Shown here: positions 1-18,764 of the stretch, one piece after another | How positions within the stretch are numbered: the stretch's first letter is position 1 | Layout of the letters: every line of letters begins with the position of its first letter | Virus record (IMG/VR): IMGVR_UViG_3300037882_002341 | Location: 1-64,000 of that record | Source of the DNA: a virus | Direction: 5' to 3' (one strand) | Length of the DNA: 64,000 bases | Program-made: the position numbers and the translations under genes | Notes under the pieces: model-generated | Database searches by the model: none | What the model was told of the DNA's origin: nothing | What the model saw: the letters and a program-made list of their open reading frames with translations, nothing else

Positions 1-120
1 CAGGATGCGGCGGAGGCAGGCGTCGCAGTCCCGGCGTTGGAAGGTTGGTCCACGGCAGACACAGTTGAAGTGATCGAGCGTCTCCGCCACGTCGTCGGCT
101 ACGTCCTTCGCGGTTCTCAC
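1..120 (-). CDS. hypothetical Cys-rich protein, runs off the left edge
   Basis: Forty codons are visible from a GTG start that overlaps the stop of the preceding gene (GTGA). An AAGGAG Shine-Dalgarno lies inside that preceding gene. The product begins MRTAKDVADD and has a CVC followed by CDAC, which could bind zinc. Codon choice is GC-rich like its three upstream neighbours, so it looks like the distal member of the same translationally coupled operon. The C-terminus is outside the window. I recognise no family. Confidence 0.6.
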   Translation of the reverse strand, partial: MRTAKDVADDVAETLDHFNCVCRGPTFQRRDCDACLRRIL

Positions 121-395
121 TTGGCTTTCTCCTTGAGGGTACGGTAGGCAGCAAGAGCGGCATTGAATCGTATGAATGTGTCGGCGGGATATGCGACAAG
201 ACTATGGAGTGAAAACGCCGCCTCCGCCAACTCATGCTCCGCCACCACGAGAGGGTCGGCGGGGAGGGCTTCGAGAGCCTCTATCGTGGAGTCTCGTAGC
301 GTCTCGGCGCTCAGGTCCATCAGGTACTCGTCAACGTGGAGATCGGCGATCTTCCGCTTGACGTCCCCGCGGCGGAGCATGTCGTCGTCGGTCAT
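117..395 (-). CDS. hypothetical acidic helical protein
   Basis: About 92 residues starting MTDDDMLRRG. I chose this start because its ATG overlaps the stop of the MazG-like gene in an ATGA quadruplet; a longer frame would run well into that gene. The product is Ala/Glu/Leu rich and probably all helical, with no Cys pairs, signal peptide or membrane segment. Third codon positions are mostly G or C. It sits in a chain of four genes joined by 4-base overlaps. Function unknown. Confidence 0.65.
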   Translation of the reverse strand: MTDDDMLRRGDVKRKIADLHVDEYLMDLSAETLRDSTIEALEALPADPLVVAEHELAEAAFSLHSLVAYPADTFIRFNAALAAYRTLKEKAK

Positions 396-922
396 TGGGG
401 CTCCTTCACATGCTTCCATGTCCCGTCCTCCCGCTTCACCCAAGTTCTGGCCTTGTTCTTCGCCAACTTGGTTTCAACAGCTGCTTTTAGGTCGAACCCC
501 TTTAGGTAGCAGAAGTGGGTGAGGCACATCAACACGTCCGCAGCCTCCTCGACGGATGGTTCTGCCACGAACTCGGCCGCCTCCTCTTGGAACTTCAGGA
601 CGTCCGACTCTGCTGTGTGCGGGATGACGCGATCGAACCATTCATTGGCGTCTTTCAGCAAGGTCTCCCAAGTCCCCGCCGCGCCGACCGCCGCCGCTCG
701 CTGGGCCTCGGCGGACTCGCGGAGACGGGACTCCGCGTGGAGGGTCGCGAGGTACTTGTCGGACTCCGCTCTCGCCTCGTCTCGCTCGGCGGTCAGGCGG
801 GCGCAGTCGGCGCGGAGAGCCTGAACCTCCGCCTTGGGGATTGCATCGAACCCAACGCAGTCTTGCAGCATTCCGTCGCACGCGGCATCGAAGACACTCC
901 AGTCCCATCTGAAGCCGCTCAT
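392..922 (-). CDS. MazG-like nucleotide pyrophosphohydrolase (all-alpha NTP pyrophosphatase)
   Basis: The C-terminal half carries the MazG/dUTPase-2 metal motif: EEAAE at residues 113-117 and EEAAD at 125-129, followed by a Lys/Asn/Arg-rich strand ending ARTW (158-161). This is the pattern of phage dATP/dGTP pyrophosphohydrolase-type proteins, which hydrolyse (d)NTPs to (d)NMP plus PPi. The first ~90 residues are a predicted coiled coil (repeated ALRADCARLTAERDEARAES-type heptads). I start at MSGFRW because it overlaps the upstream stop by 4 bases, giving 176 residues. Likely role: shaping the nucleotide pool or (p)ppGpp signalling during infection. The fold is fairly certain, the substrate is not. 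Confidence 0.75.
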   Translation of the reverse strand: MSGFRWDWSVFDAACDGMLQDCVGFDAIPKAEVQALRADCARLTAERDEARAESDKYLATLHAESRLRESAEAQRAAAVGAAGTWETLLKDANEWFDRVIPHTAESDVLKFQEEAAEFVAEPSVEEAADVLMCLTHFCYLKGFDLKAAVETKLAKNKARTWVKREDGTWKHVKEPQ

Positions 923-1194
923 CCCTCGGCCCTCCCTTCGATGGCTCGGGCGGCGGCCTTGCACTCTGCCGAATGATCGAAGCCCTCCAACCTCAGAGGG
1001 TTCCCGCGCGCCTTTCCACACCAGCAGTATCCAGAGCGGAACCCGCGGAGCGCCGCCTCCAGTTCCGCCACCCGCGCGGCCTGGGCGTCGACGTGGGCGA
1101 GGAGGGAACGCGCATCCAGCCGCGTCTCGTTGACGTCGTAAAAGCCGAATGCGATCCGCTCCCGCACCGCCGCCAACTCCTCGGGGGTCATCAT
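919..1194 (-). CDS. hypothetical protein with CWC/Cys-His motif
   Basis: Ninety-one residues starting MMTPEELAAV. The N-terminal ~50 residues look like a coiled coil. The C-terminal part has YCWCGKA and later HSAEC, a possible small zinc site. The ATG overlaps the upstream gene's TGA, and the 3' end overlaps the MazG-like gene by 4 bases. This is the first gene on the GC-rich side of a sharp composition change that falls at its own start codon. No family recognised. Confidence 0.6.
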   Translation of the reverse strand: MMTPEELAAVRERIAFGFYDVNETRLDARSLLAHVDAQAARVAELEAALRGFRSGYCWCGKARGNPLRLEGFDHSAECKAAARAIEGRAEG

Positions 1195-1469
1195 TTTCTA
1201 TCTTTCTTTTGTAATATAGCAAGTAGCTTATTACACTCTTCTTGCGCAGCTCGTTCAAAAAGTCCTGCGTCAATTGTAGTGGGCAATGATCCCATATTCC
1301 AATCTACAAGATTTGAGGTATCAATGATACCTCTTTTAATATTTTGCGGGTCGCGATCGTACTCTTGTGCTTCTACAATTATGTTTATTAACTCTCCTTC
1401 AAGTTGTCTTATAAGCCACTTACGTGCAATCTTTTGTGCATCTTTCTCTTCCTTTGTTCTATGATTCAT
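1191..1469 (-). CDS. hypothetical protein
   Basis: Ninety-two residues beginning MNHRTKEEKDAQ, Lys/Glu/Ile rich and probably helical. Codons are AT-rich, unlike the gene directly downstream that it overlaps by 4 bases. Its start codon overlaps the stop of the upstream CCVAGWAG paralogue by one base (TAATG). No motif recognised. Confidence 0.65.
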   Translation of the reverse strand: MNHRTKEEKDAQKIARKWLIRQLEGELINIIVEAQEYDRDPQNIKRGIIDTSNLVDWNMGSLPTTIDAGLFERAAQEECNKLLAILQKKDRK

Positions 1470-2156: not shown

Positions 2157-2675
2157 TTACTTGACCTTGGCGGGGTCTAGGTTTTCTTTGTTCAGTCTCT
2201 CGATGAACGATAGTAACTTCGGACCTGCTGTCCAGCTTGTCTGTTCTATACGCTTCCCGTTTTCCCTCTTCTGAGACGAGGATGACAGAAGATAATCGCT
2301 CATTGGCACATGAATCTTGAATCTCTTCAGTGACACAAGATTTATCCAACCCTTCAGATTCCGGAGAATAATCTTCTGATCGGAATTTATCTGTCGGAGA
2401 ATTTCTGCTGAATCGATTGACTGGGGGCTTACTGAGTAGATTATTTCCAGAATCTGGAGATACAGTTTTGTTTTCTCTGTCAGAGATAGAGGACTTTTCT
2501 TCTTTGGCTCGAATCTGTTCTGTGTTGGTTGCTGTATGGGAAAGAAGTTTGGGTTCGATAACTTGTTCTCCCGAGACAATTCGTCTTTTCCCATATGAGA
2601 AAGAATCTCCCTTGCCTCGGTAGCACTATTGCACTCGATTATGATTCCATTCGGGAAACTAATCTTAATTGACAT
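2157..2675 (-). CDS. hypothetical protein
   Basis: 172 residues. Residues 1-30 look like a small beta domain (SIKISFPNGIIIECNSATEA), followed by a polar linker, then a helical segment (TEKTKLYLQILEIIYSV) resembling the start of a winged-helix or HTH unit, and a basic C-terminus. No catalytic motif. It overlaps the upstream gene by 11 bases. A DNA-binding role would be a guess. Confidence 0.65.
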   Translation of the reverse strand: MSIKISFPNGIIIECNSATEAREILSHMGKDELSRENKLSNPNFFPIQQPTQNRFEPKKKSPLSLTEKTKLYLQILEIIYSVSPQSIDSAEILRQINSDQKIILRNLKGWINLVSLKRFKIHVPMSDYLLSSSSQKRENGKRIEQTSWTAGPKLLSFIERLNKENLDPAKVK

Positions 2676-3108
2676 TATGCTTTTCTTCCTCGGTAAACCT
2701 TTTTAGGGGAGGTTTGACCCAAGATGCAAAAGGTTTTGCACACCACTCTTTGACAAGAGTTACATCAAGTCCTCTGTTAGAGGCGAGAGAATAGAAACGT
2801 TCAGGCCATTGTTCAGGCTCGAACTGATCGTGAATACGTTGGGCACTATCTGCGATACCATATTGAATAGTATCAATTCCTTTATTCTCCAGGAATACTC
2901 TAAGTCTTTGACTTCTTTCTGAAGCACAGGGGTCTCTTAGACTTGCATATCTTACTGTTTCTACTTCTTCATCAGTTAAGAAGATACCTAAGGCACATTT
3001 CGTTCCTTCAGGTCCTCTATATAAACAAGTTAAACTACTATCTGTAGATTTCCTTCCCTGTTTTTGTAGATGCTCAACGATCTTGTCGAGTACTTCTTGA
3101 TCTGTCAT
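2665..3108 (-). CDS. conserved hypothetical protein with CLYRG..KCALG motif
   Basis: 147 residues. The N-terminal pattern VLDKIVEHLQKQGRKS then CLYRGPEGTKCALGIFL resembles a widespread family of uncharacterised phage and bacterial proteins with the same Cys-spaced motif. The middle contains RIHDQFEPEQWPERF. The C-terminus is basic. Its ATG overlaps the TGA of cassette gene B1. Function unknown; cytosolic. Confidence 0.7.
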   Translation of the reverse strand: MTDQEVLDKIVEHLQKQGRKSTDSSLTCLYRGPEGTKCALGIFLTDEEVETVRYASLRDPCASERSQRLRVFLENKGIDTIQYGIADSAQRIHDQFEPEQWPERFYSLASNRGLDVTLVKEWCAKPFASWVKPPLKRFTEEEKHNVN

Positions 3109-3332
3109 ATAATTACCTTTTCCAGGGGTTTACGATCATCGATAATTTCTTGAGCAATAATTCTTATTTCATTACGACTAGTGGTCTTGATTTGGCTACT
3201 ATAGGTAAGTCCATTTAGACAAGGGTCAACACTATGAAATGTGTAAGGTGCTAACTTTTTCCATAAAGCACCGAGAAGTGTAGGTAATTCTCTACATCTC
3301 TTATTCTCTACCTCCGGTAGAGCTATTACCAT
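3105..3332 (-). CDS. cassette protein B, copy 1
   Basis: Seventy-five residues from ATG. Family B is defined within this window by an N-terminal MV-x-ALP-[EG]-x-E block, a middle segment with an aromatic/DP element (HSVDPCLNG here), and a C-terminal EIR-x-IAQEII helix. This copy has MVIALPEVE and NEIRIIAQEIID. It follows gene A1 in the same frame: A1 ends TGA, then CCC, then this ATG, so UGA readthrough would give an A-P-B fusion. No Shine-Dalgarno is placed well for the ATG. Its own stop is TGA and overlaps the next gene. I recognise no described family. Confidence 0.75.
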   Translation of the reverse strand: MVIALPEVENKRCRELPTLLGALWKKLAPYTFHSVDPCLNGLTYSSQIKTTSRNEIRIIAQEIIDDRKPLEKVII

Positions 3333-3335
3333 GGG

Positions 3336-3482
3336 TCAAGCTATTCCACTAACATAATCATAGATTCCGCCATCTAATAGTATAGGTTTTCCTTCTTTAA
3401 TCCATTGTGCGAGTCTTTCTAATCCTTCTGTTGGAATCTGTACTAGACCTAGCTTTATGATTCCTTTAGTTTCTGGGAGCAT
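3336..3482 (-). CDS. cassette protein A, copy 1 (48 aa)
   Basis: A short gene present in six copies, each directly before a B gene. Family pattern: Q-[IV]-P-x2-GL-x-RL-x2-WI-x2-GKP-[IVL]-LL-x-G-x-I. This copy reads VQIPTEGLERLAQWIKEGKP then ILLDGGI. It is helical then beta-like, too short for a membrane protein, with no Cys pairs. Its stop is UGA followed by CC, as in every copy. Conservation across six copies with divergent DNA shows that it is translated. Function unknown. Confidence 0.75.
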   Translation of the reverse strand: MLPETKGIIKLGLVQIPTEGLERLAQWIKEGKPILLDGGIYDYVSGIA

Positions 3483-3883: not shown

Positions 3884-4144
3884 TCATAATTGGATATCTA
3901 ATTTAGATTCATTAATGATTTCTTGTGCGATGTCTCGAATCTCACTAGGTGTAAAGTTTTTCAGTGAATGAGAATATCTTAATATTCTTTCTTGTTCTTC
4001 ATATTCTTCTGCACTTGCAGTAATAGCATTACCCATAATGGGATCAATGTCGAACTCTATATATCCAAGTTTACGCCATCTATATCCTAGGTCTGAAAAG
4101 CAGTCGAAATCCTTTTGTTCTTCCTCCGGAAGAGCTACAACCAT
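3884..4144 (-). CDS. cassette protein B, copy 2
   Basis: Eighty-six residues, MVVALPEEEQKDF at the N-terminus and SEIRDIAQEIINESK near the C-terminus, the clearest agreement with copies 1 and 3. The middle has FDIDPIMG plus a short insertion rich in Glu/Arg. Gene A2 ends TGA-CCT immediately before this ATG and in the same frame. Confidence 0.75.
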   Translation of the reverse strand: MVVALPEEEQKDFDCFSDLGYRWRKLGYIEFDIDPIMGNAITASAEEYEEQERILRYSHSLKNFTPSEIRDIAQEIINESKLDIQL

Positions 4145-4147
4145 AGG

Positions 4148-4294
4148 TCAGTGAACACCTTTCGATGTTACTGCTCCATTTAACAGTAACTCTTTACCGC
4201 CATCTATCCAGGCTATAAGTCTTAAAAGTCCATTAATTGGGATTTGCTTCAGAGCAGTTTTTACAACTAATCTTTGTTTATCTATAAGTTTCAT
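4148..4294 (-). CDS. cassette protein A, copy 2 (48 aa)
   Basis: Same length as copy 1: MKLIDKQRLVVKT, then KQIPINGLLRLIAWIDGGKE and LLLNGAV. Its UGA stop is followed by CCT and the B2 ATG in frame. The gene begins 11 bases after the stop of B3, so cassettes 2 and 3 are tandem. Confidence 0.75.
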   Translation of the reverse strand: MKLIDKQRLVVKTALKQIPINGLLRLIAWIDGGKELLLNGAVTSKGVH

Positions 4295-4305: not shown

Positions 4306-4530
4306 TTATTTGTGCCCATTAAGAATATCTTGAGCAATTTTCTTAATATCACTAGGAGTAGTGTTAATAAGTTCTTGAGTGTAAGTGGTTAATGCTTTTC
4401 CACTTTTATCAAGAACATGTGGATTTACACTAAAGTGTCCAAGAAAACCATTTCTTTTCCAAACTTCTCCTAAAACCAGGATTCTTTGTGCAAAACGAGT
4501 AATTTCTGCCGACGGCAGAGCAGCGACCAT
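4306..4530 (-). CDS. cassette protein B, copy 3
   Basis: Seventy-four residues. MVAALPSAEITRF replaces the usual PEE by PSA. The middle reads HFSVNPHVLD and the end SDIKKIAQDILNG. It is preceded in frame by A3-TGA-CCC. Nearest Shine-Dalgarno-like sequence is a weak GAGAG inside A3. Confidence 0.75.
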   Translation of the reverse strand: MVAALPSAEITRFAQRILVLGEVWKRNGFLGHFSVNPHVLDKSGKALTTYTQELINTTPSDIKKIAQDILNGHK

Positions 4531-4533
4531 GGG

Positions 4534-4677
4534 TCAGAATAAACTCTCACTTGCCCAAATTCTTCCATCTAATAGTAAAGGTTTACCATTATCAATCCAC
4601 TCTATTAGTCTTAAAAGACCAGGAGCAGGAATCTGTTCTAAACCTTGTCTTATTGCCTTTACTGTTAGCTCTTTCAT
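4534..4677 (-). CDS. cassette protein A, copy 3 (47 aa)
   Basis: MKELTVKAIRQGL followed by EQIPAPGLLRLIEWIDNGKP and LLLDGRIW, close to the family consensus. It begins five bases after the exonuclease gene's stop. UGA-CCC-ATG junction to B3. Confidence 0.75.
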   Translation of the reverse strand: MKELTVKAIRQGLEQIPAPGLLRLIEWIDNGKPLLLDGRIWASESLF

Positions 4678-5216: not shown

Positions 5217-5447
5217 TTAAAGTTGTTCATAGGACAATCTACTTTGTTCAGATCTCTCGGTTAACAGCATATTTATAACTAATAGAATGTGTGCAGTTGT
5301 TGAAGTTCTAAGTGCCATAAAATACGAGTTCTTTTCAATCTCTGGATTATTTAAGAACTCATTGTTCTTAAATCCCAGATACATTCTTGCACCCTCTATT
5401 AATCCATTGACTCTTGCAACAGATTCTCTTGTTTCCTCCGGAAACAA
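5217..5447 (-). CDS. cassette protein B, copy 4, ATG lost
   Basis: The B-family start ATG is replaced by CAA: the junction reads TGA CCT CAA GTA CAT TTG TTT CCG GAG GAA, aligning QVHLFPEE with MVxALPEE of the others. The frame stays open, so the region is maintained. The coordinates given use the first possible start, a TTG four codons into B; readthrough of the A4 UGA would also translate it. The rest is the most diverged B copy (VARVNGLIEGARMYLGF, C-terminal ILLVINMLLTERS). Confidence 0.6.
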   Translation of the reverse strand: MFPEETRESVARVNGLIEGARMYLGFKNNEFLNNPEIEKNSYFMALRTSTTAHILLVINMLLTERSEQSRLSYEQL

Positions 5448-5459
5448 ATGTACTTGAGG

Positions 5460-5603
5460 TCAGAAAAGTCCTTCTGCACTAGAAACATAACCACTTAGTA
5501 GGAGTTTTCCTCCTTCTTCTATATATTTCTTAAGTCTCTGAAGTGCTTCTATTGGGGTTCTACCTTCTTGTCCCAGACCCAAAGATAGAAGTCTTATCCT
5601 CAT
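5460..5603 (-). CDS. cassette protein A, copy 4
   Basis: Divergent copy: MRIRLLSLGLGQEG, then PIEALQRLKKYIEEGGKLLL and SGYVSS. I chose the inner ATG because it gives the family length (47 residues) and has GGAAGAG just upstream; an ATG four codons earlier (MEESMRIR) is also possible. It ends UGA-CCT like the other copies, although the B ATG beyond is gone. Confidence 0.65.
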   Translation of the reverse strand: MRIRLLSLGLGQEGRTPIEALQRLKKYIEEGGKLLLSGYVSSAEGLF

Positions 5604-5617
5604 GCTCTCTTCCATAA

Positions 5618-6100
5618 TTACCTTATTTTCTCTATCAGTTTATATTTCTTTATCAGGGTATTGAGATAAATCCTTATCTCTTTTAATGTGGTTCTTCCAT
5701 ACTTGTTATTAGGTCCGTTGTAGAAAAGTTTCCAGCTTTCTTCAATACTAATATCGAAGAATTGAGCGAGAGTACTAACACCTACATATCCCGTAGGTAT
5801 CTGCATTCCCTCGGATCCCAAATCAAGGGTAAATCCTCTTTTCTGAAACCAAGGATCTAGTCCAGCCCAACCAGCTACGCAACAAACTGTTTGGCAAGGA
5901 GGAATATCTTTTTCTCTTATTTTCTCGTCCTTTACTCTTTTCAAGTAACTAAGCATATCAAGCTTATTACTGAATACAGAACCCCATCGACTGATAAAGA
6001 ATGCTCCTGAGGGTTTCTTTGCTACTTTATCTAGTACTCTTTTAAGTTGGAGGAGTTTTCCATATCCAGTACTTTTATCTACAAACATCTTGTTACTCAT
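5618..6100 (-). CDS. CCVAGWAG-family protein, paralogue 2 of 3
   Basis: 160 residues, closest to paralogue 1: YGKLLQLKRVLDKVAKKPSG, GAFFISRWGSVF, PPCQTVCCVAGWAG, WFQKRGF, FFDISIEESWKLFYNGPNN, and a C-terminal KEIRIYLNTLIKKYK helix. The three conserved Cys are kept. No change at the putative metal-binding core, so all three copies are probably functional. Confidence 0.8.
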   Translation of the reverse strand: MSNKMFVDKSTGYGKLLQLKRVLDKVAKKPSGAFFISRWGSVFSNKLDMLSYLKRVKDEKIREKDIPPCQTVCCVAGWAGLDPWFQKRGFTLDLGSEGMQIPTGYVGVSTLAQFFDISIEESWKLFYNGPNNKYGRTTLKEIRIYLNTLIKKYKLIEKIR

Positions 6101-6104: not shown

Positions 6105-6383
6105 TTATTTTTCCACTATGATAGAGAAATCAGGAGATATTTCGACTTTACGTCCATCTTTTAAGTAAAGCGTATGTGATCCATCTTCATGTTTACTTAT
6201 CTCTTTAACACCTAACCAGTAATCTACTCTTTTACCGGTAGATCCCTTTTTATATACATCTACTTTCATGCTAGGTATAGAAGGTGATTTGGGGCCGCAC
6301 TGAGTAGTAAAGATAGGAATAGATAAAAGAGATACAAGTAGGAAAGGTACTATTGAAGTATTACGATTAGAGATATTCTTCAT
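6105..6383 (-). CDS. small exported protein, probable lipoprotein, paralogue 1 of 2
   Basis: Ninety-two residues. A basic start is followed by a hydrophobic stretch (IVPFLLVSLLSIPIFTTQC) ending at a Cys, though TTQC is a poor lipobox. The mature part (MKVDVYKKG, then RVDYWLGVKEISKHEDGSHT, LYLKDGRKVEI, FSIIVEK) is nearly identical to the protein encoded at 9021-9293. It looks like a small beta domain exposed outside the inner membrane. Role unknown; superinfection exclusion or envelope modification would be guesses. Confidence 0.7.
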   Translation of the reverse strand: MKNISNRNTSIVPFLLVSLLSIPIFTTQCGPKSPSIPSMKVDVYKKGSTGKRVDYWLGVKEISKHEDGSHTLYLKDGRKVEISPDFSIIVEK

Positions 6384-6840: not shown

Positions 6841-7083
6841 TTATTCCTTCTTAGGTTCTTCCTCAATTAGTTCTTCTACAGCAGTGCGGACACCAGAAAT
6901 ACCATAAAGAGCTAAAGCAAATACATACGATTCTTCGCGTATGTCACAATTTGGATTTGCCGAGAAAGATTCAACACCATGAGCAATCCACTTACCTTCT
7001 AAAAAAGGCACTATCTTTATGCCCGATCTCTTTGATGCATCAATAACTTCTTGACGTGCTTCTCCCGGAAGCATTACAACCAT
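6841..7083 (-). CDS. cassette protein B, copy 5
   Basis: Eighty residues. MVVMLPGEARQEV keeps the N-terminal block, the middle has FSANPNCD, and the C-terminus (YGISGVRTAVEELIEEE) is diverged from the IAQEII consensus. No Shine-Dalgarno precedes the ATG. It follows A5-TGA-CCT in frame. Confidence 0.7.
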   Translation of the reverse strand: MVVMLPGEARQEVIDASKRSGIKIVPFLEGKWIAHGVESFSANPNCDIREESYVFALALYGISGVRTAVEELIEEEPKKE

Positions 7084-7086
7084 AGG

Positions 7087-7236
7087 TCAAGGAGCACCGT
7101 TCAAATCGACTATATAGCCTGTTGTACTAATAGGCTCTCCTTTATCAATAGCTTTAAGGAGACGTCGATATGCACGTATATCTTTTACCTGGCCAAGTCC
7201 AGCTTTCAATATGTTTAAGTGTCTACGGTTTATCAT
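7087..7236 (-). CDS. cassette protein A, copy 5 (49 aa)
   Basis: MINRRHLNILKAGLGQVKD, then IRAYRRLLKAIDKGEP and ISTTGYIVD. This is diverged in the WI-x2-GKP block but aligns without gaps to copy 4. Stop UGA followed by CCT and the B5 ATG. Confidence 0.65.
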   Translation of the reverse strand: MINRRHLNILKAGLGQVKDIRAYRRLLKAIDKGEPISTTGYIVDLNGAP

Positions 7237-7395: not shown

Positions 7396-7827
7396 CTATT
7401 GCTTATACTTCTCTAGTAATTTATTAATATATATTCTTACTTCTTCTAGTGTAGTACGAGTAAAGTTATTATTAGGTCCAGTGTAGAAAAGCTTTTCACT
7501 CTCATCAGCAGTAATATTAAAAAACAATTGAACATCTTCTGGAAGTGCTACTTTACTAAAGATAAGTAAAGCATTTATTCCTAGATCAATAACAAGTCCT
7601 CTTTCTTGGAACCAGGGATCTGACCCTGCCCAACCTCCAACACAACAGATTGTTTTACATGCTGGAACATCTTCTATTAAATTTCTGGATCTTAAGAAAC
7701 CAAGTACTTCTTCATCAGTGCTGAACTTTTTACCCCATACTCCAAAATAAAATGCTCCCTGTGCTTTTGTTGATATCTCGTCCATCACTCTCTTGAGATT
7801 GAGAAGTCTCTCATATGTGGTATTCAT
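7396..7827 (-). CDS. CCVAGWAG-family protein, paralogue 3 of 3
   Basis: 143 residues, the shortest copy: YERLLNLKRVMDEI, GAFYFGVWGKKF, PACKTICCVGGWAG, DPWFQERGLVIDLG, FFNITADESEKLFYTGPNN, VRIYINKLLEKYK. The core glycine variant (CCVGGWAG) and a Ser/Thr-poor centre are the main differences from copies 1 and 2. Confidence 0.8.
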   Translation of the reverse strand: MNTTYERLLNLKRVMDEISTKAQGAFYFGVWGKKFSTDEEVLGFLRSRNLIEDVPACKTICCVGGWAGSDPWFQERGLVIDLGINALLIFSKVALPEDVQLFFNITADESEKLFYTGPNNNFTRTTLEEVRIYINKLLEKYKQ

Positions 7828-8822: not shown

Positions 8823-9008
8823 TTACTTGTGTTTTTCTGGGTGCACTAGTGGAACAAGTAATTGTCCTCGATCATCGATACCATGCATGGTTTCAAGACG
8901 TTCAAGTCGATCATTGCTATTACAACTTGTTCCAATTATTCCCGCTAAGAGCAAAAGTCCCATGAACAGAGTCCATATTCATGCAGGTTCTTTGTTTTCG
9001 GTGGACAC
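8823..9008 (-). pseudogene. small exported lipoprotein-like gene interrupted by an in-frame UGA
   Basis: A GTG with GGAGAAATA upstream opens a frame reading V-S-T-E-N-K-E-P-A, then UGA (8979-8981), then IWTLFMGLLLLAGIIGTSC and a polar tail ending HPEKHK. Without the UGA this would be a 61-residue protein with an N-terminal membrane segment and a TSC lipobox; a Trp codon at that place (TGG to TGA) would restore it. Alternatives are restart at the ATG at 8963 (46 residues, poor Shine-Dalgarno) or readthrough. Confidence 0.45.
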
Positions 9009-9020: not shown

Positions 9021-9293
9021 TTACTTTTCTACTATGATGGAGAAGTCTGAAGGGATTTCAATTTGGCGTCCATCTCTTAAATAAAGAGTATAAGATCCAT
9101 CTTCATGTTTACTTATCTCTTTAACACCTAACCAGTAATCTACTCGATCACCGGATTTATCCTTTTTATATACTTGAACATACATAGAAGGTTGTCTAAC
9201 GGTAGTTGGTCCACAACTAACAAGTACTCCAATAACAAAAGCAAGTGCTATTAGAAAGAAGACAAGAAGAAGGTTAAGTCTGAAATTACTCAT
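9021..9293 (-). CDS. small lipoprotein, paralogue 2 of 2
   Basis: Start at MSNFRLNLLLVFF; the longer frame from 9329 has no advantage. The signal segment ends VLVSCGPTT, a good lipobox with Cys at about residue 27. The mature domain (VQVYKKDKSGDRVDYWLGVK, then SKHEDGSYTLYLRDGR, IVEK) is almost the same as the protein at 6105-6383. It is probably anchored to an envelope membrane by lipid. The clear lipobox here supports the same processing for the other copy. Confidence 0.75.
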   Translation of the reverse strand: MSNFRLNLLLVFFLIALAFVIGVLVSCGPTTVRQPSMYVQVYKKDKSGDRVDYWLGVKEISKHEDGSYTLYLRDGRQIEIPSDFSIIVEK

Positions 9294-9396
9294 TAGGATG
9301 AAATCCTTACAAAAGAGTAATGAGTACATTAGGAGGTTAAAGGAAAGGGATATACATATTAAGGAAGAGGAAGTTAGTACTAAAGGTAGTAACGTA

Positions 9397-10252: not shown

Positions 10253-10468
10253 TTACCAGTTCTCTCTTAAGAACTCCATGCAAGCTTCTATTCTCCAGTC
10301 CTGGAAGAAGGGATCGAGATCACTTGCCCGGATACGTTCTGCTAGATCTGGTCTTACGGAACATAGTTCATTAAATAAGAACTGTCCCTTGCGCCATGAC
10401 CCTGGACGGGTTATGAAAGATAAAGTTACCCTACCCGCAAATTGCTCATAGTTCTCTTTATCTGGCAT
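10253..10468 (-). CDS. conserved phage hypothetical protein
   Basis: Seventy-one residues: ENYEQFAGRVTLSFITRPGS, FLFNELCSVRPDLAERIRAS, DLDPFFQDWRIEACMEFL. The pattern VRPDLAE-[KR]-IR-x2-DLDPF recurs in small uncharacterised phage proteins. It overlaps the B6 stop by 11 bases. Cytosolic, no known role. Confidence 0.7.
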   Translation of the reverse strand: MPDKENYEQFAGRVTLSFITRPGSWRKGQFLFNELCSVRPDLAERIRASDLDPFFQDWRIEACMEFLRENW

Positions 10469-10697
10469 CTTTATTTCCTACGTTAAGAATAGCCTGTGCT
10501 ATTTCCTTAATGTCTTCTACGCTGACTAATGAAAGACTTGATCCATAACTAAGATATCTCTCTATGCTCGGATCCCAAAATTCCGGGTCTACCTGGAAAA
10601 GAGGGACACCATTAAGCATCCAAGCTCCCGAAAGGGATAGATCTGAATCAAGACAGTCAATCCTGGATCGCTCTGCCTCCGGCAGAGCGCAGACCAT
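10458..10697 (-). CDS. cassette protein B, copy 6
   Basis: Seventy-nine residues: MVCALPEAERSRID, the middle FQVDPEFWDPS, and EDIKEIAQAILNVGNK. It agrees well with the family consensus although it is 3.4 kb from the nearest other copy. It follows A6-TGA-CCT in frame. A GGAGAG lies 13 bases upstream, far for a Shine-Dalgarno. Confidence 0.75.
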   Translation of the reverse strand: MVCALPEAERSRIDCLDSDLSLSGAWMLNGVPLFQVDPEFWDPSIERYLSYGSSLSLVSVEDIKEIAQAILNVGNKDAR

Positions 10698-10700
10698 AGG

Positions 10701-10856
10701 TCAAAAGAGCTTCTCTCCGTTTGCTTTTGTACAAGTAATTTGACCAGTAAGTAATACTGGCTTACCAGCATTGATCCATTCTATTAGTCTCAAAAGACCA
10801 TCCGTAGGGATCTGATCCAGACCATTATGGATAGTCTTTCTTATGATATCCAGCAT
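10701..10856 (-). CDS. cassette protein A, copy 6 (51 aa)
   Basis: MLDIIRKTIHNGL, then DQIPTDGLLRLIEWINAGKP and VLLTGQI, the copy closest to copy 3. The C-terminus is slightly longer (TCTKANGEKLF). Ends UGA-CCT before the B6 ATG. Confidence 0.75.
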   Translation of the reverse strand: MLDIIRKTIHNGLDQIPTDGLLRLIEWINAGKPVLLTGQITCTKANGEKLF

Positions 10857-10867: not shown

Positions 10868-11008
10868 TCAAGTGGACCTAAATCCAGGACATCTTCTTTC
10901 TTTATTAGGACTAGTATGTCCGTGCCATAGGCACATCTTGCATACTTCTTCGCCGCAAATAACACAACATGCTATTATCACCCTCTCATTGCATAGAGTG
11001 CAAACCAT
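10868..11008 (-). CDS. Cys/His-rich zinc-binding miniprotein (46 aa)
   Basis: MVCTLCNERVIIACCVICGE, then VCKMCLWHGHTS. Three C-x2-C pairs plus HGH suggest two zinc sites as in RING or B-box-like folds. The frame stays open for about a dozen codons upstream without a good start, so the N-terminus is uncertain. It is the most upstream gene of the left minus-strand run. Confidence 0.5.
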   Translation of the reverse strand: MVCTLCNERVIIACCVICGEEVCKMCLWHGHTSPNKERRCPGFRST

Positions 11009-11079
11009 CCAAATAGCTTGCCCAAGCTCTTTACGATGCTTCAGTAGGGGATACTATCAACTCTCATGGTAATCTCACT

Positions 11080-11096
11080 GCGCCCCTTCGGGGCGC
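11080..11096. repeat. GC-rich 7-bp hairpin, copy 1 of 3
   Basis: GCGCCCC-TTC-GGGGCGC followed on the plus strand by CCTTTTAAA. The same architecture (7-bp GC stem, 3-base loop) recurs at 11452 and 11570. Could be a terminator or an RNA-processing signal. Confidence 0.55.
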
Positions 11097-11111
11097 CCTT
11101 TTAAAGCGGTA

Positions 11112-11171
11112 AGCCAGAGGGTACTTGTACTTTCCATGTCGCAGTTCCCAGTCTGACATGGCACTCTGGCT
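11112..11171. ncRNA. candidate structured RNA with 8-bp closing stem
   Basis: AGCCAGAG (11112-11119) pairs with CTCTGGCT (11164-11171). Inside are a small GTACTTGTAC hairpin and a 7-bp hairpin CCATGTC/GACATGG (11134-11140 with 11155-11161). A compact three-way junction by eye. It is not a tRNA, since no T-arm is present. Downstream to 11308 there is a TACCAAA/TTTGGTA hairpin but no gene. Confidence 0.45.
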
Positions 11172-11308
11172 CACCTCGGTGGCTGGTCACCTTTATTTAC
11201 TACCAAAACAACCATTCATCAAACTATTTCAATTTGGTATTCTAAAGGTTTAGTTCTACCGGTTCATGGGACTATCTCCTTTGGTTAAAGGACATCAGGT
11301 TAATTGGT

Positions 11309-11437
11309 GGCGGGGAGTCCAGATCTTTCCATCAAGTTGCCATCTTGATACATTATTGCGGTAGCGATTCCGCGTTTTGTGTATCTGAACCCTCATCGAC
11401 GGTCTTACTACCTTTAGTGACCTCCGAGTTCCCCGCC
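11309..11437. ncRNA. candidate structured RNA with 8-bp closing stem
   Basis: GGCGGGGA (11309-11316) pairs with TCCCCGCC (11430-11437) around three hairpins: ATCAAG/CTTGAT, GCGG/CCGC and GGTC..ACTA/TAGT..GACC. About 130 bases with no open frame of note. No family recognised. Confidence 0.45.
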
Positions 11438-11451
11438 TATTCTCTTGTATT

Positions 11452-11468
11452 GCGCGCCTTCGGCGCGC
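11452..11468. repeat. GC-rich 7-bp hairpin, copy 2 of 3
   Basis: GCGCGCC-TTC-GGCGCGC, preceded by TATT and followed by TTACT, the same flanks as copy 3. It separates the structured element on its left from the tRNA on its right. Confidence 0.55.
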
Positions 11469-11480
11469 TTACTTTATCTT

Positions 11481-11558
11481 TGGTAGGGGCACAGGGATTT
11501 GAACCCTGAACCTGTCGGTTATATGCCGACTGCTCTAGCCAGGTTGAGCTATACCCCG
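11481..11558 (-). tRNA. tRNA, anticodon UAU (Ile), tentative
   Basis: Cloverleaf folds: acceptor CGGGGTA/TGCCCCT with a 1:72 mismatch, D-arm GCTC/GAGC, anticodon arm GTCGG-CATATAA-CCGAC, T-arm CAGGG-TTCAAAT-CCCTG, encoded ACCA end. The anticodon loop has A instead of the normal U at position 33, so identity is tentative. Confidence 0.75.
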
Positions 11559-11569
11559 AGAGTCCTATT

Positions 11570-11586
11570 GCGCCCCTCCGGGGCGC
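11570..11586. repeat. GC-rich 7-bp hairpin, copy 3 of 3
   Basis: GCGCCCC-TCC-GGGGCGC with TATT before and TTACT after. It lies between the tRNA and the Cys-rich gene and overlaps neither. Confidence 0.55.
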
Positions 11587-11946
11587 TTACTGACCGTAGT
11601 AATCGCCGTAATCTTTTTCGAGTTCTTTCTCGATTTCTGCGAGTTCCTTGTTGTACTTCTTCCGGCACTCCATGCAGACCTCGTAGTATACCGAGGGCTC
11701 ATCCCGGGGCTTCAGCCCTGTGATATCTCTTGCCGGTACTTCCTTGTTGCACCAGTCACAGTGTCCCTTGGTGGGCCAGCCGATCTCGGTCAGCTGTTCG
11801 TCTGTGAGTTCTCTTGCAGCATAGTTGCAGCGTTGGCACCCATAGACCCCATCTTCACAGTTCCCCTTGTGAAGAGGCTTGTCATTGAGCATGGGGCCTG
11901 TGTACTCACCCACGTCAACTGGGGGTCCAAGGCTGAAGTCGTGCAT
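11587..11946 (-). CDS. Cys-rich protein with two C-x2-C pairs and a C-terminal coiled coil
   Basis: 119 residues. GCQRCNYAARELTDEQLTEI, then HCDWCNKEVPARDI and VCMECRKKYN provide Cys pairs for one or two zinc ions. The C-terminal 30 residues are a charged coil (KELAEIEKELEKDYGDYYG). GGAG lies five bases before the ATG. It sits between two structured noncoding islands, which may make it their protein partner or simply a neighbour. Family unknown. Confidence 0.7.
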   Translation of the reverse strand: MHDFSLGPPVDVGEYTGPMLNDKPLHKGNCEDGVYGCQRCNYAARELTDEQLTEIGWPTKGHCDWCNKEVPARDITGLKPRDEPSVYYEVCMECRKKYNKELAEIEKELEKDYGDYYGQ

Positions 11947-11949
11947 GGT

Positions 11950-12560
11950 GTCTCCAAGAGGTCTATTGTCGAGGGAGATCTATACCCCTATGCGGAGTCC
12001 AGTCGCCTGGGTAACTGCTTGTCGTAACTGACTTGGGAGCTTATAGATCTCCAAGAGGTTTGGTGCGGGTTGTTTTTATCCAGGTAACCCGCAAAGCCTG
12101 CTCGGGGTCTTTAAGAGCTCGGTGGGGGTCTCCCCGTGTCATCCCCAGGTCAACGCTCTATTTCACAGGTTAACATATTGACATATGTTAGTTGCCCGCC
12201 GGTGTCGCCCGATGACCTGAAATAGGCAGTCTCCAAATCCCCAGTGGTTACGAAACTGCCAAAGATCCACCGTGAGGTCGCTCTTCAGCTATCCCGGGAC
12301 GCCGAGCGTACCATAATTCCCAGGGTTATAGCTCATAAATGGCTGTTGGTTCCCCCGGTGGTCGCCATACACCAGGATCAATACCAGGACGAATACTGTT
12401 CACAGGCTGACCTGATTCCAGTATTGATCGCTTTCTCAGCGGGTGGTACCACACCCCCAAGACTGAACAGATGTCCTCTGTTGGGTCTGTTAACTCCGAT
12501 GAGGACTCTCTACTGCTCTAAGCCTGGTGGCACCCTTTCGGGCACCACCAGGTACTTTAG
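11950..12560. ncRNA. candidate large ornate structured RNA region
   Basis: About 610 bases without a credible gene. Long-range stems seen by eye: 11-bp perfect 11974-11984/12042-12052; 7-bp 12065-12071/12086-12092; 6+5 bp 12158-12170/12215-12225 enclosing a 7-bp hairpin 12171-12177/12184-12190; 6-bp 12225-12230/12255-12260; 8-bp 12276-12283/12304-12312; 9-bp perfect 12376-12384/12421-12429; 6-bp 12473-12478/12501-12506; and a final 8+3 bp hairpin 12523-12552. A 12-base direct repeat (11951-11962 and 12048-12059) flanks the first domain. Size, many nested stems and a neighbouring tRNA recall GOLLD/ROOL-type phage RNAs, but no sequence match is claimed. Confidence 0.55.
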
Positions 12561-12619
12561 TAGTAGTAGGTAATTTAAACTTAGATGTTTGTTTATTACC
12601 TATTTATTACTGTCTTGTG

Positions 12620-13669
12620 CTAGAACCCGACCTCCGCCGGGTTGACGACGTTGTCCTCCGTGTTGGAGGGAGCGAAGTTGCCCGAGGGGGCTTCCATGGG
12701 TCCCGGACCCGACGGTCCGAAGCGCTGGTTCCCGCCCGAGTTCTGGCTGTTCCGAGCCTGGGCCCGGCCCGCGAAGGGGATTCCCTTGATCTCGGAGATC
12801 TGCTTCCAGATCGGCGAGGCCTTGATCTCCCGGAGGAGGTGATCGCTCACCACCTTGCTCCGCTGTCCACGGCTGAAGACCTGCCCGCGGAAGCGACGCG
12901 TCTGCTGACGCCGGTTGTTCATGCGGTCCATGACGGGCACTCCCGTCAGGTTGCCGGCCTCGTCCGTTCCCCAGGTGAAGTAGAGTCCCAGCCCCGGGAG
13001 ACGCGACGAGGACCACTGGTCCGAGTGCGGGTTGACGATGAGGTTCCCGTCCTTGCCGATCGGGCAGAAGAGGAACGGCGTGTAGCCGATCTTCGAAGCC
13101 GGGAACTCGATGATGTGGGTGATGCGCTCGCGGCCCTTGATGGCCTTGAGCCAGCCCTTGTTCTTGAACTCCTCCAGCAGTTCGGGGTTCTCGTTGATGC
13201 TCTTGATGGCGTCGGCCATCAGGTTGTCGAGCTCGATCGTCGAGGGCACGTCCGAGGCGAAGTACGTGTCCGAACCGGAGCCCTGCTCTCCGAAGCGGAG
13301 GCTCACGGCGCTGCCCGAGGCCTTCATGTTCCCGCGGGGGTTGAGGCCGCAGGCTCGGCTGACCAGGACCGGAGGCAGGCTGTACTTCCCGTCCTCCTCG
13401 AGCTTGATCTCGCGGGAGACCCAGAGTTCGGAGGCGGCCCTGTGCTTGTTCTTCTTCTCGGGACGTCCGGGACCGAAGACGAACTGGATGTTCGCTCCGT
13501 TCACGTTGTTCTGCTGGTCCTTCTCGATCAGCAGGTTGAGTCCGGTGACGTGAGGCGGGATGGGCTCGGCCCTCACGACCTGGAGGTTCGGCAGGACCTC
13601 CTGGAGCCACTTGTCGGCGAGCGAAGCGGCGACGGCCACGGCGACGGTGGCCCTGTTCTTTCTGGACAT
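12620..13669 (-). CDS. abundant-looking protein of unknown function (349 aa)
   Basis: Start MSRKNRATVAVAV with a near-perfect AGGAGGA Shine-Dalgarno; the longer frame runs through a tRNA gene. Codons are strongly biased to C/G endings (CTC, GTC, ATC, AAG), the pattern expected of a highly expressed gene. The N-terminal ~280 residues look globular (segments QFVFGPGRPEKKN, DTYFASDVPSTIELDNLMAD, KIGYTPFLFCPIGKDGN). The last ~60 residues are Gly/Pro/Asn rich and disordered, ending with an acidic stretch as in single-stranded-DNA-binding proteins. That resemblance is only compositional, and I cannot assign a function. Its leader has a hairpin and an upstream tRNA-Leu. Confidence 0.75.
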   Translation of the reverse strand: MSRKNRATVAVAVAASLADKWLQEVLPNLQVVRAEPIPPHVTGLNLLIEKDQQNNVNGANIQFVFGPGRPEKKNKHRAASELWVSREIKLEEDGKYSLPPVLVSRACGLNPRGNMKASGSAVSLRFGEQGSGSDTYFASDVPSTIELDNLMADAIKSINENPELLEEFKNKGWLKAIKGRERITHIIEFPASKIGYTPFLFCPIGKDGNLIVNPHSDQWSSSRLPGLGLYFTWGTDEAGNLTGVPVMDRMNNRRQQTRRFRGQVFSRGQRSKVVSDHLLREIKASPIWKQISEIKGIPFAGRAQARNSQNSGGNQRFGPSGPGPMEAPSGNFAPSNTEDNVVNPAEVGF

Positions 13670-13687
13670 TTCTGTCCTCCTGTTTGT

Positions 13688-13710
13688 GTACACACGACAG
13701 CCCTGTGTAC
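13688..13710 (-). promoter_or_regulatory. 5'-leader hairpin before the 12620-13669 gene
   Basis: GTACAC/GTGTAC stem (13688-13693 with 13705-13710) about 20 bases upstream of the Shine-Dalgarno. Similar leader hairpins precede other genes of this block. Likely stabilises the mRNA 5' end. Confidence 0.45.
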
Positions 13711-13771
13711 TGGGCGTGATCTCCTCGAAAGAGAAGATGCAGAGTAAGAGAAAGGAAGAGAAGAGTTCAGC

Positions 13772-13854
13772 TGGGCGAGGAGGGAGTCGAACCCTCACGC
13801 TCTTGCGAGCAGGAGATTTTAAATCTCCAGTGTCTGCCATTCCACCACACGCCC
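13772..13854 (-). tRNA. tRNA-Leu (UAA)
   Basis: Class II cloverleaf: acceptor GGGCGTG/CTCGCCC, anticodon arm GGAGA-TTTAAAA-TCTCC, long variable arm GCTCGCAAGAGC, T-arm GAGGG-TTCGACT-CCCTC. CCA not encoded. Confidence 0.92.
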
Positions 13855-13870
13855 AGGCTTGAGACGGGTA

Positions 13871-14452
13871 CTACTGAGCGTAGCTGGGCATCGACGGAGC
13901 GATACCCTCGAACGGGGAGGTACGGGTCTCCCTGGTCCGTTCCTGTCTGGGCTCGGGCTGAGTCTGGGGCTCGGAGTAGTCCATCTCCTGCCCGTTGTAC
14001 GTGTCCTGCTCGTCGATGTAGCTGAACGGTGTGGACCTCCGGGCGAGTTCCCGGGTGACCTCGCTGTCCGACATCCGGCTGACGATCAGGGCCCAGTTGC
14101 CCTTCTGGGGGCCTTCGATGGTCTCGATCAGGGCGATGCGCCTGGCCTGGGGGTCCACCTTCGAGAGCTGGCGTCCCATGGCCCATTCGGCCTTGCGGTT
14201 CTCGGCCTTGTCCCACCCGTACTTCGTGGACTGGCCGTACTGCGAGCCTGCGATGGAGCTGGCTGCTGACTTCAGGATGTCGCCGAGCATCATGAACGGT
14301 GTGGCCAGGGCGTTGCCCAGTTCACCGGTGGCGACTCCTGCGCAGTGAGTGCTGTGTACGAGCCTGTTGCCCACTGCGGGCATGGGGACGAGACGTCCGT
14401 TGCGCACGACGAGCACGTGGTCCTTGGGGATACGACTTTCCTGGACTCGCAT
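13871..14452 (-). CDS. hypothetical protein
   Basis: 193 residues from MRVQESRIPKD, chosen for the AGGAGGG eight bases upstream. Segments: DHVLVVRNGRLVPMPAVGNR, an Ala/Ser-rich stretch LKSAASSIAGSQYGQS, KGNWALIVSRMSDSEVTREL, and a disordered Pro/Glu/Thr-rich tail. No catalytic motif. Codon bias matches the neighbour downstream of the tRNA-Leu. Confidence 0.7.
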   Translation of the reverse strand: MRVQESRIPKDHVLVVRNGRLVPMPAVGNRLVHSTHCAGVATGELGNALATPFMMLGDILKSAASSIAGSQYGQSTKYGWDKAENRKAEWAMGRQLSKVDPQARRIALIETIEGPQKGNWALIVSRMSDSEVTRELARRSTPFSYIDEQDTYNGQEMDYSEPQTQPEPRQERTRETRTSPFEGIAPSMPSYAQ

Positions 14453-14517
14453 TGAGCCCTCCTGAGAAAGAGAAAAAGAAACCACAAGAGAGGAAGAGAG
14501 AAGAGAAAGAGGTATTC

Positions 14518-14772
14518 TTATGCTACGTTCCTCCTTCCTCGCCTGAGGCTAGTTGTGGTCTGTTGTTCCAGGACAAAGCCCGTAGGGCGCATGTCCGGGA
14601 ATGCCTGATTCAGGACACTCTGCCTGAACTCTGGACTTGAGATCACAACAATTGTTGCCTTGAGCACTGCATCGGCTACGCTTTCGCGCTTGGCCTTAGC
14701 AGAGGCTATGGCAACTATTGTTGCAATACCCGCTCCCAGGAGGAAACACACGAGACCGATGATGATTGTCAT
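14518..14772 (-). CDS. membrane-anchored hypothetical protein (84 aa)
   Basis: Starts MTIIIGLVCFLLGAGIATIV, a single N-terminal membrane helix, followed by a polar helical part (KAKRESVADAVLKATIVVI) and a basic tail (SLRRGRRNVA). Its ATG overlaps the TGA of the upstream gene (ATGA), which supports this start over the longer frame to 14907. Confidence 0.65.
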   Translation of the reverse strand: MTIIIGLVCFLLGAGIATIVAIASAKAKRESVADAVLKATIVVISSPEFRQSVLNQAFPDMRPTGFVLEQQTTTSLRRGRRNVA

Positions 14773-14948
14773 GGTTTGAAGATCCCGATGTAGGTGAGAT
14801 CGTTGTTGTTCTTGTTGAACATGAAGAGCTTGAAGCCACTCTTCTTGTCCTCGATGCGAACGTCTTCTACGACCTTCTCGGGGGACTCCCTGAGCATGGG
14901 CCACCATGTGTAGTCGTCGAAGATTACGTAGAACAGGTACTTATCCAT
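14769..14948 (-). CDS. hypothetical protein (59 aa)
   Basis: MDKYLFYVIFDDYTWWPMLR, then VEDVRIEDKKSGFKLFMFNK and LTYIGIFKP. An alpha-beta miniprotein. The YI-x-IF/YLGIM ending resembles the proteins encoded at 15293 and 15567, so the three may be distant relatives. Coupled to the next gene by ATGA. Confidence 0.65.
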   Translation of the reverse strand: MDKYLFYVIFDDYTWWPMLRESPEKVVEDVRIEDKKSGFKLFMFNKNNNDLTYIGIFKP

Positions 14949-14957
14949 GTTTAGCCC

Positions 14958-15290
14958 CTACATGTCGAGCTGATTTCTCAGCCTCTTCTTTTCGAAGTAG
15001 AGGATCATGGTTAGCATAAGTCCAAAGACTAACCCCGCAGTGAATCCCGTCAGGGTGAATCCGAGGCCATATGTCAACCCCCAAGATAGACCAATGTCAA
15101 TGATCCATGACACTGGGCCCCATGTGATCACTCTCTTCAACCAAGTAGGAGTGAACACGTACGCGAAGCCTACTGAGAACAACATGACAATTCCCAGTAA
15201 TGCCCCGTTGATGATCAGGTGGGCTCCCGACAGGGAGGCCAGGAGTATGACTACTCCGAAGATTGCGCACAGAATCCAGAACGACTTCAT
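14958..15290 (-). CDS. integral membrane protein, about 4 TM helices
   Basis: 110 residues, almost entirely hydrophobic: MKSFWILCAIFGVVILLASL, GALLGIVMLFSVGFAYVF, WIIDIGLSWGLTYGLGFT, AGLVFGLMLTMILYF, then a basic tail KKRLRNQLDM. Inner-membrane protein. Not recognised as a holin family. Confidence 0.7.
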   Translation of the reverse strand: MKSFWILCAIFGVVILLASLSGAHLIINGALLGIVMLFSVGFAYVFTPTWLKRVITWGPVSWIIDIGLSWGLTYGLGFTLTGFTAGLVFGLMLTMILYFEKKRLRNQLDM

Positions 15291-15292
15291 GT

Positions 15293-15502
15293 CTACCTTC
15301 CCTTATATGGCTCGAGGACCCACTTCTTGTGCATGATCCCGAGGTACCTGAAGTCTACGTCCACCTGCTCGTAGATCTCGAGGGGATAGGTCGAGTTCCT
15401 GTCCACCCTGTTCTGGAAGGCCAGGATAGCATCCTCCACGTTTTCCGCCTCACAGTGCCAGAAAGTCCCACCCGTGTAGTGGATAGCGAAGTACTTCTTC
15501 AT
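15293..15502 (-). CDS. hypothetical protein (69 aa)
   Basis: Starts MKKYFAIHYTGGTFWHCEA with CAGGAGA upstream. Contains ENVEDAILAFQNRV and RYLGIMHKKWV. The strand-helix-strand order is similar to the two neighbours of comparable size, suggesting a small duplicated family. No function assigned. Confidence 0.65.
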   Translation of the reverse strand: MKKYFAIHYTGGTFWHCEAENVEDAILAFQNRVDRNSTYPLEIYEQVDVDFRYLGIMHKKWVLEPYKGR

Positions 15503-15566
15503 GTTTATCTCCTGTGAGAAGAAGAGAGAAATAGACCAAGAGGTAGAGAAAGGGAAGAAAAGACTA

Positions 15567-15830
15567 CTACTTGAGCTGCCAGCCCAGTTCCATCCTCCCA
15601 CAGTAGACGAGATTGTTGTTGTCACCCATGCTCTTCTTCCAGTAGAGGAAGACCATGTGTCCCTCTGTCAGGTTCTTGTGTTTCAGTTCCTTGGCGATCT
15701 TCTTCATTGCGCTTTCCCGGTCCGTGTCCATTACAACGATGTACTGACCTTCGTGTAGTGCGTAGAAGAAGAACTCTTCCGTGTCCTGTTCTCCCCCTCC
15801 CAGTTCCTCGAAAACCTTTGCTATGCTCAT
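15567..15830 (-). CDS. hypothetical protein (87 aa)
   Basis: MSIAKVFEELGGGEQDTEEF, FFYALHEGQYIVVMDTDRES, AMKKIAKELKHKNL, YCGRMELGWQLK. It shares the layout beta strand, D-x-[DE]-x-A-[MI] helix and C-terminal Y-x-G strand with the 15293 product. GGAGA six bases before the ATG, and a CCCCTGCAGGGG palindrome (15846-15857) directly before that. Confidence 0.65.
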   Translation of the reverse strand: MSIAKVFEELGGGEQDTEEFFFYALHEGQYIVVMDTDRESAMKKIAKELKHKNLTEGHMVFLYWKKSMGDNNNLVYCGRMELGWQLK

Positions 15831-16056
15831 GTACCTATCTCCTTTCCCCTGCAGGGGACACGTGATAAGACCACAACGTAAGAAGGAGAGAGGAAAGCCT
15901 ACTGTTTACAGAGTGTATTTCTATGGTTTAGGTGGGTTTAAGTATGTGTTTAGCGGGGATCTATTTGAACGAGTAGGTTTATCGAGGATTAGCTTTGAGC
16001 TCGGAAATTCCGGTTGGATGGGATAATCCGGGTCAATTGAGGTTACGTACCTCATT
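15831..16056 (-). other. intergenic leader region, no gene supported
   Basis: About 225 bases upstream of the 15567-15830 gene. The plus strand has an open stretch (VYRVYFYGLGGFKYVFSGDL) without a usable start. The minus strand is open nowhere useful. It probably holds the promoter of the downstream unit, but I see no clear -10/-35 pair. Confidence 0.4.
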
Positions 16057-16090
16057 TAAAACAAAAGGAGTAGGTGATGTCCCTACTCCT
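16057..16090 (-). terminator. rho-independent terminator of the 16117-17844 gene
   Basis: Read on the minus strand: AGGAGTAGG, 7-base loop, CCTACTCCT (9 bp), then TTTTGTTTT. Confidence 0.85.
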
Positions 16091-16116
16091 AATGTTGTGT
16101 ACGTCGTGAGGCTCAG

Positions 16117-17844: not shown

Positions 17845-17917
17845 TTGAGTGGTACCTCCTTTGGGTGAGCAACTCTCGGTGCTTTCTTTAGTGAGGTGCA
17901 CCTAAGCCTCATTGAAA

Positions 17918-17960
17918 ATAAAGAAACAAAAGGGCAGAGCCTGCAAAGCAGGATGCCCTT
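17918..17960 (-). terminator. rho-independent terminator of the 17964-18236 gene
   Basis: Minus strand: GGGCA...TGCCC stem with an inner CCTGC/GCAGG stem, then TTTTGTTTCTTT. Confidence 0.8.
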
Positions 17961-17963
17961 GTC

Positions 17964-18236: not shown

Positions 18237-18257
18237 GTTGACCTCCCTTGAATGAAC

Positions 18258-18713: not shown

Positions 18714-18764
18714 ACTGCTCCTTGGCCATATTGGTAACTGGGTTGGCCAGACCCACTTAAGTAG

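Follow-up and report, generated by a model that had tools for sequence, protein, structure and literature searches.

The closest described counterparts of the genes reported here are the bacterial selenoproteins with a SECIS element in the coding region, such as those encoded by E. coli fdhF, fdnG and fdoG (PMC13188914, PMC8659212). The two have in common an in-frame UGA, a hairpin that begins about 13-16 nt downstream of it, a small apical loop whose G[G/U] lies about 20 nt after it, and a UGA that elsewhere is still a normal stop. The genes reported here differ from them in being phage-borne, in numbering nine paralogues in one genome, in having no Cys homologue that we could find and in showing no known fold; their hairpin differs from that of fdhF in being short and without a bulged U. 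Selenocysteine decoding has been linked to phages before, through the tRNA-Sec genes of Basilisk-like Bacillus phages (PMC6145125) and of huge wastewater phages (PMC10747093); the portions of those two papers on which we draw report the tRNA and not selenoprotein genes with a SECIS, whereas here there are genes and no tRNA-Sec. The crAss-like phages, in which a stop is recoded under genetic code 15 (PMC9523058), likewise read a stop codon as sense in phage genes, but in the present case a single UGA per gene is concerned, with a local RNA signal, and UGA elsewhere still terminates. Among the open-access papers covered by our searches, phage selenocysteine amounts to occasional tRNA-Sec genes: we found there no description of a phage selenoprotein gene with its own SECIS, which is not proof of absence, and the words phage and virus do not occur in the main text of a 2026 review of the prokaryotic selenoproteome.

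The locus lies on a viral record of 192,957 bases that carries about 30 tRNA genes together with tailed-phage structural genes; the stretch of DNA analysed, termed the window, is its first 64 kb. The record also has a gene for tmRNA, at about 174944-175368 (locus L015 10944-11368, minus strand). Between 3.1 and 10.9 kb of the window, interspersed with other small phage genes, are six minus-strand cassettes, each made up of two short frames, A and B. TGA closes A in every copy, and B follows in the same frame; the junction reads TGA CCN ATG G.. except in copy 4, where it is TGA CCT CAA GTA. Copy 1 (3105-3482) has its in-frame TGA at 3336-3338, followed by a hairpin at 3306-3322 (CTCTACC-GGA-GGTAGAG); copy 2 (3884-4294) has them at 4148-4150 and 4118-4134 (CTCTTCC-GGA-GGAAGAA, with one mismatch), and copy 3 (4306-4677) at 4534-4536 and 4504-4520 (around TCTGCC-GTC-GGCAGA). 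Copy 4 (5217-5615) opens with ATG at 5613-5615 and closes with TAA at 5217-5219, the fused A4-TGA-B4 product being 132 aa long; its TGA, the proposed Sec codon, is at 5460-5462 and its SECIS-like hairpin at 5430-5446 (TGTTTCC-GGA-GGAAACA). In copy 5 (6841-7236) the TGA is at 7087-7089 and the hairpin at 7057-7073 (TGCTTC-CGGGA-GAAGCA). Copy 6 (10458-10856), with TGA at 10701-10703, has the longest stem of the set, its hairpin core at 10671-10687 reading CGCTCTGCC-GGA-GGCAGAGCG.

A profile of the six fused window proteins picked out three further copies in the phage genome, at record positions 139316-139693, 188194-188565 and 167852-168199, each with one internal TGA, and a DNA pattern scan of IMG/VR yielded a tenth, also with TGA, on the viral contig L077. 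At a threshold of E<=1e-3, no frame of L077 other than A-B had a match in this phage, so gene, TGA and hairpin alike are shared by two viral sequences that are not otherwise related. No copy of A-B turned up in sixteen terminase relatives of the phage, whose records span 8-118 kb. The HMM search of the phage's own genome gave exactly one TGA per copy, and this TGA is invariant in all ten copies, with homologous coding sequence on both sides as judged by an HMM that runs across A and B; nine of the ten are paralogues, hence not independent. B is kept in the frame of A in every one of the ten, and every B frame is open. The UGA is always followed by C, the Pro codon after it being invariant, and then by ATG in nine copies (five in the window, three elsewhere in the phage genome, and that of L077).

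A hairpin with a stem of five to nine pairs and a small loop is possible in every copy over the interval from about 14 to 30 nt downstream of the TGA, and its stem covaries even though the region is coding (CTA/GTA, CTT/GAA, CTG/GCA, TTT/GAA). In a gap-free alignment 90% of the cells are paired, against 41-66% in slid controls; two-sided changes are found in 13 cells, a number reached by none of 500 shuffles (4.7 +/- 1.6); and the covariation score is 0.540, compared with 0.07-0.15 for slid partners. In a search with a covariance model built on these sites, all ten scored E<=3e-6 and no other site came below 0.2, the ten being its training set, so that only the absence of others is informative. 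All ten loops (CGGAG, CGTCG, CGGGA, AGTTA, CGTTG and CGGCG are the forms seen) carry N-G-[G/U], at a spacing of 17-20 nt. The loop G falls on the third, freely variable position of a conserved Pro codon, which at this place is CCG in nine of the copies, as against 9.4% of the phage's Pro codons: a naive P of 5e-9 which, like the probabilities for the hairpin, is optimistic because the paralogues are related. In the remaining copy the loop is shifted by one base, G falling again within the first two loop positions.

These properties can be set against the published model of the bacterial element (bSECIS; PMC13188914), which specifies a loop of 3-9 nt, a stem of 4-16 bp, a minimum free energy of -7.5 kcal/mol or below, and a G at loop position 1 or 2, mostly as N1G[G|U]NN2, 16-37 nt from the UGA. 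Loop size, stem length, loop G and spacing are as specified in all ten copies. Folded in isolation, the hairpins have energies of -5.5 to -15.8 kcal/mol, four of the ten reaching -7.5 on their own and six being weaker (-5.5 to -7.4); 50-nt folds from the UGA, in which other pairings are counted, give -7.8 to -22.4 kcal/mol. At chance level, about 7% of the phage's TGAs pass the full model and 1.9% a stricter fixed-position test. E. coli fdhF, put through the same script as a positive control, came out with loop AGGTCT, a spacing of 17 and a weak local energy, since the script does not model the bulge in the fdhF stem. The G23/U24 essential in E. coli (reviewed in PMC8659212) is within 1-2 nt of the position of G[G/U] here. 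Position and loop of the phage hairpin fit the bacterial model, several copies being weaker than its energy cut-off.

We think it probable that the UGA is decoded as selenocysteine at a coding-region SECIS, and that the ATG beyond it is only a Met codon. Each A+B cassette would be one gene of about 120-135 codons with a decoded UGA in its middle. Host SelB:GTP:Sec-tRNA-Sec would be recruited by the hairpin, whose G[G/U] lies at the apex some 20 nt past the UGA; Sec would be inserted and the ribosome would run on into B without a new start, and the product would be a protein of one domain in which a short helix begins with Sec. Wherever the Sec machinery or selenium was missing, translation would yield nothing beyond the A peptide, about 50 aa long. 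SelA, SelB, SelC and SelD would presumably be supplied by the host; the phage has no recognisable SelB and no recognisable tRNA-Sec above the cut-off. Readthrough of the UGA in all ten copies is well supported by comparison of the copies, from which we infer translation across it: the TGA is invariant in all ten, the hairpin covaries, TGA is put to two uses, and B4 appears not to have evolved neutrally. The residue inserted at the UGA is presumably Sec. Our confidence goes no higher because no Cys homologue was found and the phage brings no tRNA-Sec above the cut-off.

Cys homologues exist for most known selenoproteins. For A-B, no homologue with Cys or any other sense codon at the position of the UGA came from patterned scans of IMG/VR and GTDB genomes, from tblastn against phages and plasmids, or from HMM searches of about 1,600 genomes, these searches being less than exhaustive for so short and diverged a family. 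A tblastn match in Pseudomonas phage D6 (E=0.1) proved to be a different protein, and phrog_889, aligned by hhalign, was not significant as a Cys homologue. The protein of window 2665-3108 (minus strand; phrog_17693), GTKCALGIFLTDEE, contains the motif Y-R-G-P-x-G-x-K-C-A-x-G, and hhalign aligns its invariant Cys with the residue at the A-B UGA, making it a possible distant Cys relative; the probability of that alignment is 16% and a larger profile scored within the upper range of shuffled controls, so we keep it as a lead only.

The main rival to selenocysteine is simple readthrough of the Trp type, a programmed event without selenium in which a near-cognate tRNA, either a Trp tRNA or the tRNA-Trp CCA that the phage itself encodes, would decode a leaky UGA-C with the aid of the hairpin and set a fixed ratio of A to A-B. 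It would account for the C that always follows the UGA, for a stimulatory hairpin downstream, for the tRNA-Trp CCA gene that the phage carries at 21830, and for our having found neither a Cys homologue nor a tRNA-Sec. The CC after the UGA is nevertheless accounted for by the invariant Pro, and both the fixed spacing of the conserved apical G[G/U] and the forced CCG suit SelB rather than a generic stimulator; we consider selenium-free readthrough unlikely, while taking it seriously.

Under selenocysteine decoding A and B form one polypeptide, and models of the fused chain were made with AlphaFold2, the TGA residue being entered as Cys. Fused copy 3 gave a mean pLDDT of 93.5 and a pTM of 0.87, fused copy 4 a pLDDT of 87.7 and a pTM of 0.83; the fused chain, that of copy 4 included, is accordingly predicted to be a single compact domain. 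In the copy 3 model the UGA residue stands immediately before a short helix, with short strands just ahead of it. The motif around it, [FPHYA]-U-P-M-V-x-[AM]-L-P, is conserved, and the ATG of nine copies is most plausibly taken as the codon for the Met of its U-P-M-V segment. Neither a Cys partner nor a known redox fold was found in the A-B protein; searches with the fused proteins in Pfam, PHROGs and NCBIfam returned nothing meaningful, and fold searches of the PDB and BFVD returned no match, which is not proof of a new fold.

Copy 4 runs, on the minus strand, TGA (5460-5462), CCT, CAA (5454-5456), GTA CAT TTG (5445-5447) TTT CCG GAG GAA. An earlier note on this DNA had pointed out that CAA stands where the other five copies of the window have ATG, which is correct, copy 4 being the one ATG-less member among the ten, and that the frame beyond is open nonetheless, as it is: up to the TAA at 5217 there are 80 codons counting from the TGA, or 76 aa counting from the TTG. 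The V-x2-[LF]-PEE block that it described there survives in part, P-x-[VA]-x-x-[LF]-P being universal while PEE is replaced in other copies by PSA, PGE, PVR, PLA or PAE. The note saw in copy 4 a hint of readthrough of the A stop or of a shift to the TTG. The first of these is upheld, and for all ten copies; the second is not favoured, for no ribosome-binding site precedes the TTG (duplex energy -0.2 kcal/mol), and the TTG is located between the TGA and the hairpin that is conserved in all copies. The hint had been drawn without the hairpin, its covariation, its fit to the bacterial SECIS or the prediction of one domain for A+B.

The same evidence bears on a second alternative, that there are two proteins: A would end at the UGA, and translational coupling would restart synthesis for B at the ATG 3 nt further on, or in copy 4 at the TTG of 5445-5447. 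In its favour, the ATG that nine of the ten copies have just past the stop lies at a distance typical of coupling. Yet coupling requires neither UGA in preference to UAA or UAG nor a B in the frame of A, which is kept in all ten; it leaves unexplained the covarying hairpin inside B and the missing ATG of copy 4, whose TTG lacks a ribosome-binding site, so that a start codon is not present in every copy; and A+B is predicted to be one domain. Shine-Dalgarno sites at the B starts are mostly poor. Reinitiation seems to us improbable. With readthrough and a single predicted domain, B would need no start codon of its own, and the CAA of copy 4 is best read as a Met-to-Gln change in the U-P-M-V motif rather than as loss of a start codon.

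Still more improbable is a change of genetic code, local or host-wide, that gives UGA the meaning Trp or Gly under code 4 or code 25. The observation in its favour is that TGA is under-used as a stop by the phage: in greedy gene calls over the 193 kb, ORFs of at least 100 aa end in TAA 99 times, TAG 52 times and TGA 17 times (n=168). At 10%, TGA is unusually rare record-wide, with TAG at 31%, which could reflect a leaky or recoded UGA in the host. Against recoding, the phage genes of at least 150 aa contain 700 TGG and no internal TGA, an absence imposed by gene calls that took TGA as a stop; TGA was not found as Trp in core genes, and what is informative is that these come out full length with TGA as stop over the 193 kb and that the scan described below lists so few cases. 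Copies 1, 2 and 8 themselves end in TGA, six genes in the same calls have stop/start overlaps of the ATGA type, and none of the called tRNAs has a UCA anticodon; two tRNAs missed by ARAGORN, considered as possible UCA suppressors, are Asp GUC and Tyr GUA. TGA is never a general sense codon in this phage, and recoding by code 4 or 25 is largely refuted.

The two uses of TGA are seen side by side in copies 1, 2 and 8, where the internal TGA has the hairpin and the terminal one has no SECIS-like hairpin; among 33 TGA-terminated genes, two are followed by a comparable one (-5.5 kcal/mol or better). A scan of the 193 kb for TGA linking two open frames outside other genes gave 27 cases only, and when these are ranked by hairpin energy all nine A-B genes of the phage fall within the top ten. 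The remaining one of the ten is weak and overlaps tRNA genes, and the scan produced no convincing gene with an in-frame TGA other than A-B. A stretch at window 8823-9000 (minus strand; MSTENKEPA-TGA-IWTLF) was considered as a second in-frame TGA; it is more simply a lipoprotein-like ORF with its own ATG, and is missing from the hits of the scan for in-frame TGA and hairpin.

That the copies are pseudogenes, or paralogues in decay after a nonsense mutation long ago, as copy 4 with its lost ATG and its 8 of 17 conserved B columns might suggest, is hardly credible when the TGA is present in ten of ten very diverged copies, all B frames are open, and B4 has codon-position bias, a covarying hairpin and a fold predicted with high confidence. 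The earlier note had named neutral evolution of B4 as a pseudogene as evidence that would tell against its hint of readthrough, and this is contradicted: identity of B4 to the other copies is 0.476 at codon position 2, far above the 0.304 at position 3 (baseline for unrelated sequences about 0.28), from which it follows that B4 has spent most of its history evolving as coding sequence for a protein. The similarity is not fortuitous: an HMM from which copy 4 was left out recovers the fused copy 4 protein (E=6e-14) and also B4 by itself (E=0.004). B4 has diverged further than its counterparts, as the retained columns indicate; its hairpin is intact, the stem TGTTTCC/GGAAACA differing from those of the other copies by compensation. 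Under selenocysteine decoding copy 4 would be an ordinary member with Gln for the Met of the motif, and it most likely belongs to a previously undescribed viral selenium-protein family instead of being a gene that has lost its start codon.

We lean, somewhat less firmly than for the decoding itself, towards such a family in the wider sense: phage Sec proteins with nine paralogues here and a copy in an unrelated phage, perhaps of a new fold and without Cys relatives, dependent on the host's selenium machinery for their synthesis, and acting perhaps in host takeover or as a sink for host SelB. Their place in a minus-strand block of small genes suggests that the role of the protein is possibly redox or selenolate chemistry early in host takeover. 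Ordinary gene callers would split each A-B gene into two unrelated small ORFs, and families of this kind would be systematically overlooked as a result. If the reading is correct, such phages depend on the selenium status of the host and may tune themselves to it, and the ten copies are natural SECIS variants with compensatory changes that would be useful for defining what SelB requires.

The surroundings of the cassettes have features of their own. The GC content of the cassette block is 36-39%, that of most of the remainder about 45%, and it rises to 53-59% at window 1-1200 and 11000-20000, possible recent acquisitions. Three paralogues of phrog_889, at 1469-1963, 5618-6100 and 7396-7827 (minus strand), are interleaved with the A-TGA-B copies; they share the motif C-x-T-x-CC-x-x-GWAG and make up another multiplied family of small Cys-rich proteins. 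A lipoprotein-like gene is likewise duplicated, at 6105-6383 and 9021-9329 (minus strand), the DNA of the two being 80% identical over 172 bases.
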